Source: Fibrobacter succinogenes (GTDB lineage: Bacteria > Fibrobacterota > Fibrobacteria > Fibrobacterales > Fibrobacteraceae). From it: 53,069 nucleotides of DNA. Position numbers and translations under genes: made by a program. A model generated the notes under the pieces. That model was not told the origin of the DNA. It ran no database searches and saw nothing but the letters and a program-made list of their open reading frames with translations. Shown in pieces: positions 5,457 through 10,883 of this stretch (position 1 is its first letter; each line of letters opens with the position of its first letter). Location: positions 1 through 53,069 of the forward strand of contig CACXKY010000001.1 of NCBI GenBank assembly GCA_902768325.1. The letters are read 5' to 3'.

Positions 5457-7233
5457 ACGTACCGTACTGGTTGGCGTTCCGGCCTCTCCCGGCTTTGCCA
5501 TGGGGAAGGCGTTCCCGGTTGTAAACCGGGAAATTTCTGTTGTTGAGGAGTCCCTCCCCGAAAGCCGTATTGCTGCTGAAGAACAGCTCTTCTTGAAGGC
5601 GGTGAACAAGACCGTCGCTGAAATCAACAAGATCAAGGAAATCTCGGAAAATCGCACAGGTCTCCGTGACAGCTTGATTTTTGCATCCCATTTGATGATC
5701 CTCCAGGACCCCGGCCTCGTGGGCGGAATCCGGGACATGATCAAGAAGGACCACAAGAATGCCCGCTGGGCCGTACATGTGGTGCTGGGAAATTACATCG
5801 ACAAGTTCGAAAAGATCGATTCACCGGCCATGCGCGACAAGGCGGCGGACTTGCGCGATTTGTACAACCGCCTCATGGGGGCGATGGAAGATTCCGGACC
5901 GGTACTTGAGGATGTCGGTACCGAGGCCGGAGCCGTCCTCGTGGCGCACGAGTTCTTGCCGAGTTTCTTGATGTCTGTCAAGCCGGGCCAGGCAAGCGCT
6001 CTTGCCATGGATACGGGTGGCCGAACCAGCCATGTGGCCATTCTGGCGCGCTCGCTGCAGATTCCGGCCGTGTCGGGCCTTCGCAATATCGCGGCCTTGA
6101 TCAAGCCCGAAGATACGTTGATTGTGGACGGTTCGGGTGGCATGGTCATCGTGAACCCGAACGAAGATGATATCCGCCGGTTCCATGAACGCCAGGAAGT
6201 GTTCGAACGCCAACGCCGTGAATTGTTCACGATGCGCCGTCTGGAACCGATGACGCGCGATGGCAAGTATATCACCTTGCATGCGAATATCGAATTGCCG
6301 ACCGAATCCGAGAAGGTCATGGACTTCGGTGCGACAGGCATTGGCCTGTACCGTTCGGAATTCCTCTTCTTCCGTAAGGATCCTCCAAGCGAAGAAGAAC
6401 AGCGGGAAGCTTACAGACAAATTCTTGAAACGATGGCGCCGTGCCCGGTGACCATCCGTACGCTTGATGCCGGCGGAGACAAACTGGTTTCCGGTATTAC
6501 GGCGTCGAACGAGGCGAACCCCTTTATGGGATGGCGAAGCATCCGCGTTTGCCTGGACCGCGAAGAGATTTTTTGCACGCAGCTCCGCGCCTTGCTTTTA
6601 GCGAATACGAAGGGGAACCTGCGTATTTTGCTGCCGATGATTTCGGGACTTGCGGAACTCCGCAAGGCGAAGGCGCTCATTGAGCGTTGCCGCGAGGAAC
6701 TTATCTTGCAGGGCGATGATATCGCTCCCGTGAAGGTCGGCGTCATGATTGAAGTGCCTGCCGCAGTGATGCAGGTGGACAAGCTCGCCAAGGAAGTCGA
6801 TTTCTTCAGCATCGGAACGAACGACTTGATTCAGTTTACGTTGGCGGTGGACCGTACCAACGAGCTCATTACCGATATGTTCCAGCCGCACCATCCGGCC
6901 GTGCTCAGCATGATTTACCAGACGGTGATGGCCGCGCACCGGCAGGGAATTCCCGTGGCGGTTTGCGGTGAAATGGGTTCGGACCCGTTCAGCGTCTTGT
7001 TGCTGGTGGGGCTTGGCGTAGATGAACTTTCCATGACGCCTTGGAGCGTGATGGCGACGAAGAAGATTATTCGATCGATGAACTTTGAAGATGTCCGCGA
7101 GACGGCCTTGACCGTTCTCAAGATGGACGATGCGGAAGCTGTCAATGCCTATTTGAAAGCACGGTACGCGCAGGCAATTAAGGACCTGGGAATATCTAGT
7201 TTGCTGGGTGATGACAGCGAAAAACAGAGTTAG
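5428..7233 (+). CDS. ptsI: Phosphoenolpyruvate-protein phosphotransferase, PTS enzyme I
   Basis: 601 residues, slightly longer than typical enzyme I (about 570). The order is: N-terminal phosphohistidine and HPr-binding part with GGRTSHVAILARSLQIPAV (catalytic His near residue 200), a linker, then the PEP-binding barrel with MGWRSIRVCLD, VGVMIEVPAA, FFSIGTNDLIQFTLAVDR and the C-terminal CGEMGSDP active-site cysteine loop. It uses PEP to phosphorylate HPr in the cytoplasm. The start at 5428 lies inside the end of ptsH; it is the only ATG that keeps the conserved N-terminal VGVPASPGFA, so the 29-base overlap is real and points to translational coupling. The slt gene begins directly after the stop. 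Confidence 0.94.
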   Translation: MTSSTKSQAERTVLVGVPASPGFAMGKAFPVVNREISVVEESLPESRIAAEEQLFLKAVNKTVAEINKIKEISENRTGLRDSLIFASHLMILQDPGLVGGIRDMIKKDHKNARWAVHVVLGNYIDKFEKIDSPAMRDKAADLRDLYNRLMGAMEDSGPVLEDVGTEAGAVLVAHEFLPSFLMSVKPGQASALAMDTGGRTSHVAILARSLQIPAVSGLRNIAALIKPEDTLIVDGSGGMVIVNPNEDDIRRFHERQEVFERQRRELFTMRRLEPMTRDGKYITLHANIELPTESEKVMDFGATGIGLYRSEFLFFRKDPPSEEEQREAYRQILETMAPCPVTIRTLDAGGDKLVSGITASNEANPFMGWRSIRVCLDREEIFCTQLRALLLANTKGNLRILLPMISGLAELRKAKALIERCREELILQGDDIAPVKVGVMIEVPAAVMQVDKLAKEVDFFSIGTNDLIQFTLAVDRTNELITDMFQPHHPAVLSMIYQTVMAAHRQGIPVAVCGEMGSDPFSVLLLVGLGVDELSMTPWSVMATKKIIRSMNFEDVRETALTVLKMDDAEAVNAYLKARYAQAIKDLGISSLLGDDSEKQS

Positions 7234-7237
7234 GTTT

Positions 7238-9559
7238 ATGCGGTTTTTATCGGTACTATTTATCTCCGTACTTGTTTGTAATTCTTGGGCGGGTTCCTTG
7301 GATGTTGTTCCGGCGATGGTGACGGACAGCCTTATCGCGACAATGCCGCTGACCCCTCCGGACCCGTATGAAGAATTGGAAAAGATCCCGTCGGCGCATT
7401 TCCAGAACTTGGTGGTGCGTGCGGAACGTTCCCGTAAGGCGGCCGCCGATTCGACGCTCCCGAAGAACATCCGCGACTTTGCGGTGGCGGCAGCGTATTT
7501 CTATTCGGAATCGTGGGATAGCGCCTATGCGGCATACGATTCTCTCCGTTCGAGAGATTCTGTTTTGGAAAAGAGCGTCATCTTGCGTATGGCGAAGGCC
7601 CGCTTTATGCAGGGCGATTTCGTGAAGATGCGCAAGACTCTGGAACTCGGGACGAGGTTTGCGACCGATGCCGCGTTCGACAAGTCGGCGTCACGTATGC
7701 GTATAGAGGCCGCCATGGCGGATTCGACGCTTACGGACCATGCGCATGCGGATTCGCTGAAGGCGTTTTTGGAAAAGTACCCGAAGGGAGACGATGCTGC
7801 GGCACTCAAGTACCGCTATGCGGAATACCTGGAACAGTTCAAACAGTTGAAGCAGGCGAAACGCCTGTACATGCAGTTGCTCACGAGCGCTACGGCGTAC
7901 AAGGATTCCGCCTTTGCGGCAATCCGCAGGCTTCGCAAGGTGAAGGGCGCCCCGGAGAGCCTGACCGAAAAGGTCGCTTATGCCAAGATGGCTTGCGCGA
8001 AAGATGAAATCGACAACTGCCTCGCTTTGCTTGATTCCATCCGCATTCTGGATTCCCTGCAGGTGGCGAAAAAGCCGGAGACGGCGCTCCCGCCTCCGGA
8101 AGATTCCCTGCAGAAACTCCTCCCGCCGAGTACGCTCGATATGGCAACACGCATTATGCTTTGGGAAAAGCGCGCGGTGGTGCTGCGTTCCCTGAAACGC
8201 GAAAAGGAATCGATTGCGCAGTTCAAGTTCCTCCTCGATTCGGTCGAGGCGCGCCCGCTGTGGATGCAGTCGACGCTCCGCCTTTACCGCAATGATGCGA
8301 AGAAGTATGTGAAAGAAATCAAGACGATGGACTCGCTGTTGCAGGAAGTGAACCGCTACAGCAAGGAAAACGCCAACAATCTGTGGGTCCGCGGTTTTGA
8401 ATACGAACAGAAAGAACAGTACGACAGCGCTATCGTCTGCTTCAGGACTCTTGCCGACAAGAAGTTCAAGAACAACATCAAGAGGCAATGGGCCAAGTTC
8501 CGCATCGGCTTTATCTATTTCAAGCAGGAAAAATGGAACGAGGCCGTGGCCGCCTTTATTGATGCAACAAAAGATCCGTTCCTGTGGAGCGGTAGTGGCG
8601 CCCGTATGTTCCTGGGCGATGCCTACCTGAAGCTCGGCAAAGATTCCTTGGCCCGAGAAGCGTATCTGGACTGCATCCGCGATTTCCCGCTGGCTTATTA
8701 CGCGCACCGCTCCCGTACCAAGCTTGTCGATAACAAGCTGATGGATGCCAAGCAGGTTCCTTTCGCGCATGGTGTGGCCATGTCTCCCGAAGAGACGCTT
8801 GCGTGGATCCGTGCCAGCCAGAAGGTCGGGGTGCCGGATACGACGTACAACCCGCGGCGCTACAAGCGCATTCGCGAGCTGTTCCTGTACGGCTTTACTG
8901 ACGAAGCCTTTGCGCTTTATGACGAAGCCCGCAAGAAGAACTTCAGGCGCCTAGATTTCCTGTACGAATACGGCATGCTTTTCTACGAGGTGGGCGAGAC
9001 GTCTGCCGGCTACCGCCTGGCGCGCCAGTTCCAGAACAACATCGACCGTCGTCGCCTTATGTCGCCTCCGATTTCGGTGCTGCATTACCTGTACCCGATT
9101 CCGTTTACCGAACAGGTCAAGTTCCATTCCGGCGACCGCATCGATCCGTTCTTCGTGTACAGCGTGATGCGCCAGGAATCGATTTTCAACTTCCTGATTT
9201 CTTCGCCCGTGGGAGCGTGTGGACTCTTGCAGATTATGCCCGCTACCGGCAAGATGCTCGCCGGCAAGGAAAATATTGCCGAATGGTTTGATCCGCAGAT
9301 GCTGTTTAATCCGTACATGAATATCCGCCTGGGTATCCGCTATTTGGTGGACTTGAAGGCGGAATACAGCGATGACTACATGTACGTTCTCGGTAACTAC
9401 AATGCAGGCCCCAAGCCCACCAAGCGCTGGCAGGCTGCCGGTGAGGGCAAACCTTGGGATGTCCGCGCCGAAGAAATCAGCTATTGGGAAACCCGCGACT
9501 ACGTCAAGCGTGTCATGGGGAATTACTGGATCTATCAAGAAATCTATGATGGGCTGTAA
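7238..9559 (+). CDS. slt: Soluble lytic murein transglycosylase, Slt70-like
   Basis: About 773 residues. The start at ATG 7238, five bases after ptsI, gives a clean signal peptide (MRFLSVLFIS, cleavage near SWA); an overlapping ATG at 7211 or GTG at 7208 is possible. A long alpha-superhelical, TPR-like region (about 60-600) precedes a C-terminal goose-lysozyme-like domain. The catalytic glutamate is in MRQESIFNF (about residue 647), followed by GACGLLQIMPATG and the substrate-groove motif LGNYNAGP. Such enzymes cleave the MurNAc-GlcNAc bond to give 1,6-anhydro products in the periplasm. The gene closes the MCE-HPr-EI operon. A transglycosylase behind PTS genes is unusual and may just reflect shared transcription. 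Confidence 0.9.
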   Translation: MRFLSVLFISVLVCNSWAGSLDVVPAMVTDSLIATMPLTPPDPYEELEKIPSAHFQNLVVRAERSRKAAADSTLPKNIRDFAVAAAYFYSESWDSAYAAYDSLRSRDSVLEKSVILRMAKARFMQGDFVKMRKTLELGTRFATDAAFDKSASRMRIEAAMADSTLTDHAHADSLKAFLEKYPKGDDAAALKYRYAEYLEQFKQLKQAKRLYMQLLTSATAYKDSAFAAIRRLRKVKGAPESLTEKVAYAKMACAKDEIDNCLALLDSIRILDSLQVAKKPETALPPPEDSLQKLLPPSTLDMATRIMLWEKRAVVLRSLKREKESIAQFKFLLDSVEARPLWMQSTLRLYRNDAKKYVKEIKTMDSLLQEVNRYSKENANNLWVRGFEYEQKEQYDSAIVCFRTLADKKFKNNIKRQWAKFRIGFIYFKQEKWNEAVAAFIDATKDPFLWSGSGARMFLGDAYLKLGKDSLAREAYLDCIRDFPLAYYAHRSRTKLVDNKLMDAKQVPFAHGVAMSPEETLAWIRASQKVGVPDTTYNPRRYKRIRELFLYGFTDEAFALYDEARKKNFRRLDFLYEYGMLFYEVGETSAGYRLARQFQNNIDRRRLMSPPISVLHYLYPIPFTEQVKFHSGDRIDPFFVYSVMRQESIFNFLISSPVGACGLLQIMPATGKMLAGKENIAEWFDPQMLFNPYMNIRLGIRYLVDLKAEYSDDYMYVLGNYNAGPKPTKRWQAAGEGKPWDVRAEEISYWETRDYVKRVMGNYWIYQEIYDGL

Positions 9560-9562
9560 TTC

Positions 9563-9606
9563 GGAATTAGGAATAGAGTTAGTAGTTCTGAGTTACTAGT
9601 TACTAG
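9563..9606. repeat. Left heptamer array of the four-helix-bundle cassette
   Basis: Starting four bases after the slt stop, a degenerate seven-base unit repeats: GGAATTA, (one off-phase unit), GAGTTAG, TAGTTCT, GAGTTAC, TAGTTAC, TAG. The consensus is TAGTTAC. It is the inverted counterpart of the array at 10002-10036; the best inverted match is 16 perfect bases (AGTTACTAGTTACTAG, 9591-9606). Confidence 0.75.
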
Positions 9607-9616
9607 GATATAGGGT

Positions 9617-10030
9617 ATGGCTGTTTCGAATTATCAAGATTTGATTGTTTGGCAAAAATCAATGGAACTGGCCAAAAAGGTATATGTGGTAGTGAAGCTT
9701 TTGCCAAAAGAAGAACTGTATGCTTTATCTGACCAAATACGTCGTTCTGTAGTTTCAATACCATCAAATATAGCGGAAGGTTGTGCTAGAGAGTCAAAAT
9801 CAGAAATGACATATTTTTTGAGAATTGCCAAGGGGTCTGCAGCCGAGCTGGAAACGCAACTTTTGCTCTGCTTGAACACAGGCTATTTGAAAAAACAGGA
9901 TTTAGAGCCGTTGATTTCTCTTTTAGATGAAATAAGTAGGATGCTTAGATCCTTAATGAAACCAATGCGTTCTAATCCTAAAAACAGACGGTCTTATCCT
10001 GCCAACTCGGAACTAGTAACTAGTAACTAG
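9617..10030 (+). CDS. Four-helix-bundle protein, 23S-rRNA-IVS/Avd-like family
   Basis: 137 residues, nearly all helical. The opening NYQDLIVWQKSMELAKKVY, then QIRRSVVSIPSNIAEGCARES and FLRIAKGSAAELETQL, are hallmarks of the small family first noticed as proteins encoded in intervening sequences of 23S rRNA genes (TIGR02436/PF05635-type), related in fold to Avd of diversity-generating retroelements. Biochemical function is not established; Avd binds nucleic acid and a reverse transcriptase, but neither a reverse transcriptase nor variable repeats are visible here. The last residues (ELVTSN) are encoded by the right-hand heptamer array, so repeat and gene form one unit. Composition is AT-rich against its neighbours. 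TATAG at 9610-9614 just before the start could serve as a -10 box. Confidence 0.88.
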   Translation: MAVSNYQDLIVWQKSMELAKKVYVVVKLLPKEELYALSDQIRRSVVSIPSNIAEGCARESKSEMTYFLRIAKGSAAELETQLLLCLNTGYLKKQDLEPLISLLDEISRMLRSLMKPMRSNPKNRRSYPANSELVTSN

Positions 10031-10036
10031 TAACTA
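10002..10036. repeat. Right heptamer array of the four-helix-bundle cassette
   Basis: Units read CCAACTC, GGAACTA, GTAACTA, GTAACTA, GTAACTA, the reverse complement of the left-hand consensus. The array covers the last codons and stop of the four-helix-bundle gene, then runs into TATATT (10034-10039), which could act as a -10 box for the DMT transporter starting at 10047. Confidence 0.75.
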
Positions 10037-10046
10037 TATTACCAGC

Positions 10047-10883
10047 ATGTTATTCCTAATGCTCACAATCGGTCCGGCGTTCCTTTTCGCCTGCGGAAAC
10101 ATCCTGGAAAAGTCCGGCGTGTCGACGGTCGGCAAGCGCACCGGCGGAACTTCCCGCCCTTGGGCGTTCTTTAAGGGCGTGATTACGAATAAATTCTGGT
10201 GGCTCGGCATTTGCTGCTCGGGATTGGCGACTGTCGGGTACTATATCGCCATGGCGCGTTACGACCTTTCGCAAGTGCAGCCCATGATGGTCTTGAACCC
10301 GGTGCTGACCGCGTTGATGGGATTCTGCATCCTCAAGGAAGCCCTGACCAGACGTATTGTCGTGGCCATCTGTTTTGTGGTGGCGGGCCTCTTGTATTCC
10401 GTCGAGAATCTCGGCGAATCGACCGCGGTGCAGAACGTGGGAATGCTATGGGCGTATGCGGGCGGACTCTCCTTGGCGACGCTTTTCGCGCACCTGTGCG
10501 TCAAGGACCGCGAGATGGTGGATTCGCTTATCATGGGCGTGGGCTTCGGGCTTTCGGCGGCGTTCTACAAGAGCCTCGCCATGGATTTTGACTTGGACCA
10601 TATCGAATGGTCTTCCGTGGCAAACCTCTTGCTCGATTTCAGGACGCTCGGGTACATCGCGACCTACGGAATCGCCTTCCTCTATTCGCAGATTTCCTTT
10701 TCGCGCGGGCGTGCGCTGTTCATCATCCCGTTCAGCGCCGCTGTTGGGGCCGCTGTGCCGACCCTGGCGGGAGCCCTCGTTTTTGCGGAAGCCTTCCCCA
10801 TGGGCAAGGCCATTTCGGTCGCGCTGGTGCTTATTGGCGCTTGCCTGTTCATCGTGCGTAGGCCGCGGCGTAAAAAGGCCTAG
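10047..10883 (+). CDS. DMT-superfamily (EamA-like) membrane transporter
   Basis: 278 residues with about ten predicted membrane helices arranged as two similar halves, the standard EamA/DMT layout. First-half landmarks are YDLSQVQPMMVLNPVLTALMG and second-half landmarks are FSRGRALFIIPFSAAVGAAV, equivalent loops in the two repeats. The C-terminus is basic, as expected for a cytoplasmic tail. The substrate cannot be told; family members export amino acids, nucleotide sugars or other metabolites. The gene starts 10 bases after the heptamer array; TATATT (10034-10039) sits 7 bases before the ATG, so any transcript from it would be nearly leaderless. A link to the following polysaccharide genes is possible but not shown. 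Confidence 0.82.
   Translation: MLFLMLTIGPAFLFACGNILEKSGVSTVGKRTGGTSRPWAFFKGVITNKFWWLGICCSGLATVGYYIAMARYDLSQVQPMMVLNPVLTALMGFCILKEALTRRIVVAICFVVAGLLYSVENLGESTAVQNVGMLWAYAGGLSLATLFAHLCVKDREMVDSLIMGVGFGLSAAFYKSLAMDFDLDHIEWSSVANLLLDFRTLGYIATYGIAFLYSQISFSRGRALFIIPFSAAVGAAVPTLAGALVFAEAFPMGKAISVALVLIGACLFIVRRPRRKKA

Follow-up and report, generated by a model that had tools for sequence, protein, structure and literature searches.

The gap between slt and the following transporter gene in Fibrobacter succinogenes raises the question of what kind of sequence has come to lie there. The initial annotation of the analyzed DNA (a stretch of 53,069 nucleotides, called the window below) had described a small gene that fits snugly into this gap, bounded by inverted arrays of a degenerate heptamer with a best match of 16 perfect bases, and had suggested that it might be a mobile cassette. 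The description agreed with our measurements. Between slt, which encodes a lytic transglycosylase (7208-9559, + strand), and the DMT-family transporter gene (10047-10883, + strand), the two target-side neighbors, the gap was filled by two arrays and an IVP gene. The left array (9558-9606, + strand) contained seven units, which in register read AATTCGG, AATTAGG, AATAGAG, TTAGTAG, TTCTGAG, TTACTAG and TTACTAG, so that TTACTAG forms the inner units, and its first unit overlapped the stop codon TAA of slt (9557-9559). The right array (10004-10038, + strand) was the reverse complement of the left one, with five units (AACTCGG, three of AACTAGT, and AACTATA), and ended 8 nt before the ATG of the DMT gene (10047). 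The IVP gene (9617-10030, + strand) encodes 137 amino acids and, as had been noticed, its last codons and its stop codon (10028-10030) lie inside the right array.

The inverted arms (9572-9606 and 10006-10040) were 35 nt long with 80% identity, and their score was reached neither by any of 1000 shuffles nor by any of the 542 other pairs of the window with equal spacing. The perfect 16-nt core stands at 9591-9606 on the + strand (AGTTACTAGTTACTAG) and at 10020-10035 on the - strand, where the + strand reads CTAGTAACTAGTAACT. The whole element (9558-10038, + strand) is about 481 bp long and stands where ten relatives have a slt-DMT gap of 3 bp. Its GC content was about 38%, compared with 52-59% in the surroundings, in line with the AT-richness remarked on before. 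In the predicted RNA fold the arrays paired and enclosed the ORF (z = -3.96). The window element thus has terminal inverted repeats that close a hairpin round an S23p/IVP ORF, as expected of an intervening sequence (IVS).

The product of 9617-10030 matched PF05635 (23S_rRNA_IVP; TIGR02436, four helix bundle protein) with 3.6e-40 and 136.9 bits over residues 7-111, against a curated Pfam cut-off of 33.8. Of the two kinships that had been claimed for the family, the one to Avd of diversity-generating retroelements appeared only as sub-threshold matches (bAvd, 6e-8; DivGenRetAVD, 1.5e-7), with an Avd family score of 31.7 bits against a cut-off of 80. No reverse transcriptase (RT) gene adjoined the IVP gene, which was the one IVP gene in its own genome, and no RVT_1 match was found in that genome, a MAG of 85.5% completeness. 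PF05635 is a large family with solved structures and, to our knowledge, no known function. The computed pI of the window protein was 9.3, and IVP proteins were basic in general (median pI 9.0). Their PDB relatives 2gsc and 2rld have five chains each, and a family member from X. campestris is a homopentamer according to work cited in PMC4990558. The gene was under purifying selection, with dN/dS of 0.02-0.13 in most informative pairs. Since this selection acts on a gene inside the element, IVP may be considered a candidate mobility factor no less than cargo.

The same junction was then compared among relatives, some of them represented by MAGs. Ten relatives (G001, G003, G005, G010, G012, G015, G017, G020, G022, and G023) had a clean empty allele, in which the slt stop codon is followed by 3 bp and the ATG, so the gene and its flanks were not conserved in place. 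The gap was filled by an element of the window type in G000, G034, G004, and G019, by another IVP subfamily with another heptamer in G002, G016, and G033, and by gene-less arrays in G009 and G011; G024 had a remnant. A second junction, lysS-lolC, behaved similarly. Twelve relatives were scored as empty, with a junction of 3-7 bp in most, and elsewhere it was filled by several IVP groups or by gene-less arrays. The filled alleles began at the stop codon and often extended exactly to the ATG. On the neighbor-gene trees, the empty label alone required at least 6 changes at slt-DMT and at least 11 at lysS-lolC. Furthermore, G016 and G022, whose lolC genes are about 97% identical, carried different IVP subfamilies at lysS-lolC. 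One IVP clade kept the heptamer TCTCGTC at two different sites, which indicates that gene and arrays travel together. Polymorphic presence, clean empty sites and dispersed copies, by which a mobile element is recognized, were all found. The mobility of the IVP-array element is thus well supported, and the earlier suggestion of a mobile cassette gains from the empty sites, although horizontal transfer through recombination in the flanks, and not fresh insertion, may account for part of the distribution of filled alleles.

Several further features were seen at these junctions. Nearly all IVP-filled alleles had TAG as the lysS stop codon, and clean empty alleles had TAA, suggesting that the element boundary probably lies within the stop codon. 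Codon 6 of lolC (loci L315-L344) encoded Trp (TGG) in every one of the 12 empty alleles; of the 14 IVP-filled alleles, 12 had Leu or Phe there, through several codons, which is a convergent change beside the insertion. Gene conversion of the lolC start was judged unlikely as its source because several different codons were used. The lysS-lolC gap of G014 (L316) held a short TCTCGTC-like remnant that resembles a deletion scar, and the near relative G001 still has the matching element. No target-site duplication was seen, and any 3-bp TAG/CTA overlap would look the same as an array unit. No copying intermediate was identified in this analysis. Duplicates on Calothrix plasmids shared their neighboring genes as well, so that the element boundary could not be read from them.

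To learn how general this architecture is, IVP loci were surveyed in two samples. Among Fibrobacterota relatives, 34 of 61 genomes had IVP genes (1-5 each). At the first 30 of these loci the best repeat period was 7 on the left side in 29 and on the right side in 27; the mean period-7 score was 17.5 and 16.6, respectively (maximum 21), compared with 9.2 in controls, and other periods stayed at the control level. The second sample comprised 80 loci outside Fibrobacterota from at least a dozen phyla (Bacillota, Bacteroidota, Pseudomonadota, Cyanobacteriota, Planctomycetota, Verrucomicrobiota, Chloroflexota, Acidobacteriota, Nitrospirota, Patescibacteria, and others). A strong period-7 array was present on at least one side at 61 of the 80 loci, compared with 3% of control windows. 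The left-right inverted similarity exceeded the control-window maximum at 63 of 80 loci and the 99th percentile of cross-locus pairings at 44 of 79. On contigs classed as viral, about 20 of 28 IVP genes had inverted heptamer arrays (L350-L377). A minority of IVP loci had period 8 instead of 7 (L053, L237, L261, L271, L296, and L360). These results indicate that inverted heptamer arrays are an architecture belonging to the IVP family, in most tested members. As a trait of all Avd-like proteins they were ruled out, because five Avd-like loci, one of them adjoining an RT, were without arrays.

Among loci with clear arrays, 52 of 79 lay between two co-directional genes, and of the 59 loci whose right array was clear, 18 had the gene end inside it. 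Insertion in 23S rRNA was ruled out for the sample: a motif scan of about 150 IVP loci found no 23S motif near any of them, and the window element itself lies between slt and DMT. The family name therefore reflects a minority location, at least in this sample.

The heptamer unit differed from locus to locus (for example AACTAGT, CTTCCTA, TCTCGTC, CCTCGAA, ACTCATA, ACGCCCG, and TCTACCG), and the left and right arrays of one locus mirrored each other. It had been expected that the heptamers recur beside other family members; the inverted arrays did recur, but the word was not conserved, apart from a common CTA/TAG core. When 194 arrays were rotation-aligned on the right-hand strand, the consensus was C(0.75) T(0.83) A(0.56) NNN M, with 34% C and 10% G. 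CT was found in 150 of these arrays compared with AG in 39, and AACT was found in 25, its complement in none. Core and polarity together give the element the order TAGNNN... - IVP gene - ...NNNCTA across phyla, which suggests that the arrays are recognized by something conserved. Some arrays also had 13-nt GC mini-hairpins inside them or at their edge (e.g., GCACCGCAGGTGC, GCGCCATAGGCGC, and GCCGCTTCGCGGC), at L130 (8930), L135 (137-242), L136 (13268), L321, L320, and other loci.

Arrays were also found without the gene. The genome of the window was scanned with a pattern of 2.5 heptamers allowing at most 3 mismatches, which gave 164 matches, compared with 28 for the reversed pattern as control. 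As this genome has one IVP gene, nearly all of the matches lie away from it. Many were opposed pairs 14-91 nt apart, and a 23-nt core between opposed arrays occurred in 8 copies (0 in the control), which constitutes a miniature, MITE-like subfamily. That it arose from the local IVP gene by internal deletion was rejected, since the 5' side matched no better than shuffles and the 3' side weakly. In 100-kb samples, nine IVP-positive genomes had 2-12 period-7 arrays and seven IVP-negative genomes 0-4 (Mann-Whitney p = 0.004, with a slight bias towards the former, as four of the nine samples came from IVP-bearing contigs, some with the gene in the sampled stretch). Thus a few arrays persist in genomes that lack IVP. 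Array periods were almost exclusively 7 or 14, other periods being almost absent. The gene-less arrays resembled the resident IVP heptamer more closely than those of other genomes (mean percentile 0.77, p = 0.02 per genome), with G036 and G008 as exceptions. The gene-less arrays, including the miniature form, whose copies share a 38-nt core, are likelier to be the non-autonomous part of the system, as derivatives, than the IVP element is.

On this evidence, we consider it probable that 9558-10038 belongs, as a single copy, to a widespread class of mobile elements, small hairpins in which an IVP gene lies between inverted heptamer arrays with a CTA/TAG core. Such an element would insert where the stop codon of one operon gene is followed by the start codon of its successor, and would be co-transcribed with its operon. 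In the transcript the arrays would pair, forming a long hairpin like that of the 23S rRNA IVSs, which are excised by RNase III, and the same processing may take place here. The basic, pentameric IVP may bind the repeated heptamer cores and, in doing so, promote the insertion of further copies of its own element and, in trans, of gene-less arrays. Insertion at gene junctions might proceed by template switching or by annealing at short stretches of TAG/CTA microhomology, with a copying intermediate made by host replication or repair enzymes. Several observations count against this explanation: no target duplication or copying intermediate was found, genomes lacking IVP still have a few arrays, those of G036 and G008 are unlike the resident heptamer, and the IVS protein of Coxiella is reported to be probably not made in vivo, with a decaying ORF (PMC4990558), so that the protein would not be needed for persistence there. 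We nevertheless infer, as the best-supported reading, that IVP acts on its own arrays and that insertion relies on short TAG/CTA homology and host enzymes.

Passive repeats round a host gene might have been built by replication slippage and by the correction of quasi-palindromes, both of them established mutational processes, with IVP as an ordinary RNA- or DNA-binding regulator and presence or absence reflecting gene loss and homologous transfer. The stepping of array lengths by 7 nt in Coxiella (PMC4990558) and in the Nostoc trnL P6b stem (PMC4476775) would agree with this, as would the finding of neither transposase nor target duplication. However, unrelated IVP subfamilies occupy identical junctions of 3-7 bp, the CTA core and the strand polarity recur across phyla, gene-less copies with one common core are dispersed over the genome, and slippage alone leaves unexplained why the period beside one family is almost exactly 7. 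We therefore regard passive repeats as unlikely.

The remaining alternatives invoke an enzyme encoded elsewhere. If IVP, like Avd, passed the hairpin RNA to an RT whose cDNA then entered gene junctions, the distant Avd similarity (both profile matches being below the cut-off), the folded transcript (z of -3.96), and the residence of known IVSs in an RNA gene (PMC4990558) would fall into place. But no RVT_1 match was found in six complete IVP-positive genomes (G004, G009, G010, G025, G030, and G033), among them G030, which had the densest arrays sampled, and the Avd-like loci lacked arrays, so this retroelement is improbable. We attach equally little weight to a MITE-like element whose arrays serve as terminal inverted repeats for a classical transposase, with IVP as cargo. 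The initial annotation had leaned this way in proposing a non-autonomous element moved in trans, and the inverted termini, the small size and the many gene-less copies are what it would predict. That proposal was not supported. Four of the complete IVP-positive genomes (G010, G025, G030, and G033) lacked both RVT_1 and Y1_Tnp, the latter being the transposase family searched for, with DDE families outside the search. Moreover, the ends vary among elements of the same genome as well as from phylum to phylum, which transposase-specific ends do not; a target duplication was not seen; and IVP, a conserved gene, is the only one that the long form never lacks. Co-occurrence shows that neither RVT_1 nor Y1_Tnp is required, and an RT or Y1 transposase was rejected as obligatory partner. 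The IVP-array element looks like a mobile element that does without a transposase, is widespread and has largely escaped notice.

For most tested PF05635 members these results supply a common anatomy and make them testable as mobility proteins; since every element brings along a candidate recognition array of its own, binding specificity becomes predictable from sequence. As a literature link between IVP and heptamers we found only those of Coxiella, and no paper describing the general architecture of IVP with inverted heptamer arrays, in a search that most subscription papers and preprints lay beyond. A wider proposal can be offered tentatively, with rather less confidence than the reading of the window element: that IVPs may be the mobility factors of transposase-free hairpin elements across bacteria, which recognize their own heptamers, insert copies of themselves and of gene-less arrays at gene junctions and in RNA loops, and gave rise both to the 23S rRNA IVSs and to the long-known intergenic arrays of cyanobacteria, Beggiatoaceae, and Bacteroidetes. 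If true, this would bring together in one element class the 23S rRNA IVSs, the intergenic heptamer repeats and the trnL P6b stems, and would add a mode of mobility without transposase or, by the co-occurrence found here, reverse transcriptase.

The closest known system is the 23S rRNA IVS of Coxiella burnetii. As described in the accessible part of PMC4990558, it is about 430 nt long, with an S23p/IVP ORF in terminal inverted repeats that form a long hairpin, a 28-bp stem at its termini and, upstream of the ORF, GACAGAT heptamers in tandem; its transcript is excised by RNase III, and earlier authors cited there suggested that IVSs are mobile elements. The PF05635/S23p protein, the ORF within terminal inverted repeats, the hairpin, and the heptamers are shared with the window element, which differs, together with about 150 IVP loci, in lying between protein genes and outside 23S rRNA. 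That part of the paper describes neither general inverted arrays nor a CTA core, dispersed gene-less copies, or empty sites. By analogy, the Coxiella IVS looks like the rRNA-resident form of the IVP-array element.

TAACTGA heptamers are found between genes in Beggiatoaceae, cyanobacteria, and Bacteroidetes, often end 1 nt before a start codon, and have no transfer mechanism that is known; four-helix proteins, S23 proteins or intervening sequences are not mentioned with them (PMC4679880). In the Nostoc trnL P6b stem, paired heptamers undergo whole-motif replacement between strains (PMC4476775). The arrays described here are likewise intergenic 7-nt direct repeats that often stop just short of a start codon, and their stem, like P6b, is made of paired heptamers. 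By this likeness, TAACTGA arrays and P6b stems may be gene-less forms of the IVP element. With Avd, IVP has in common the four-helix-bundle superfamily (weak profile matches), but the window IVP stays below the family cut-offs and adjoins no RT, and Avd-like loci have no arrays. REPINs/RAYT and MITEs are also short intergenic inverted-repeat elements, in which a minority of copies bear a gene and many do not. Unlike them, the IVP element contains no Y1 or other transposase and exists in complete genomes without Y1_Tnp; its ends are degenerate 7-mer arrays that are different in each element.
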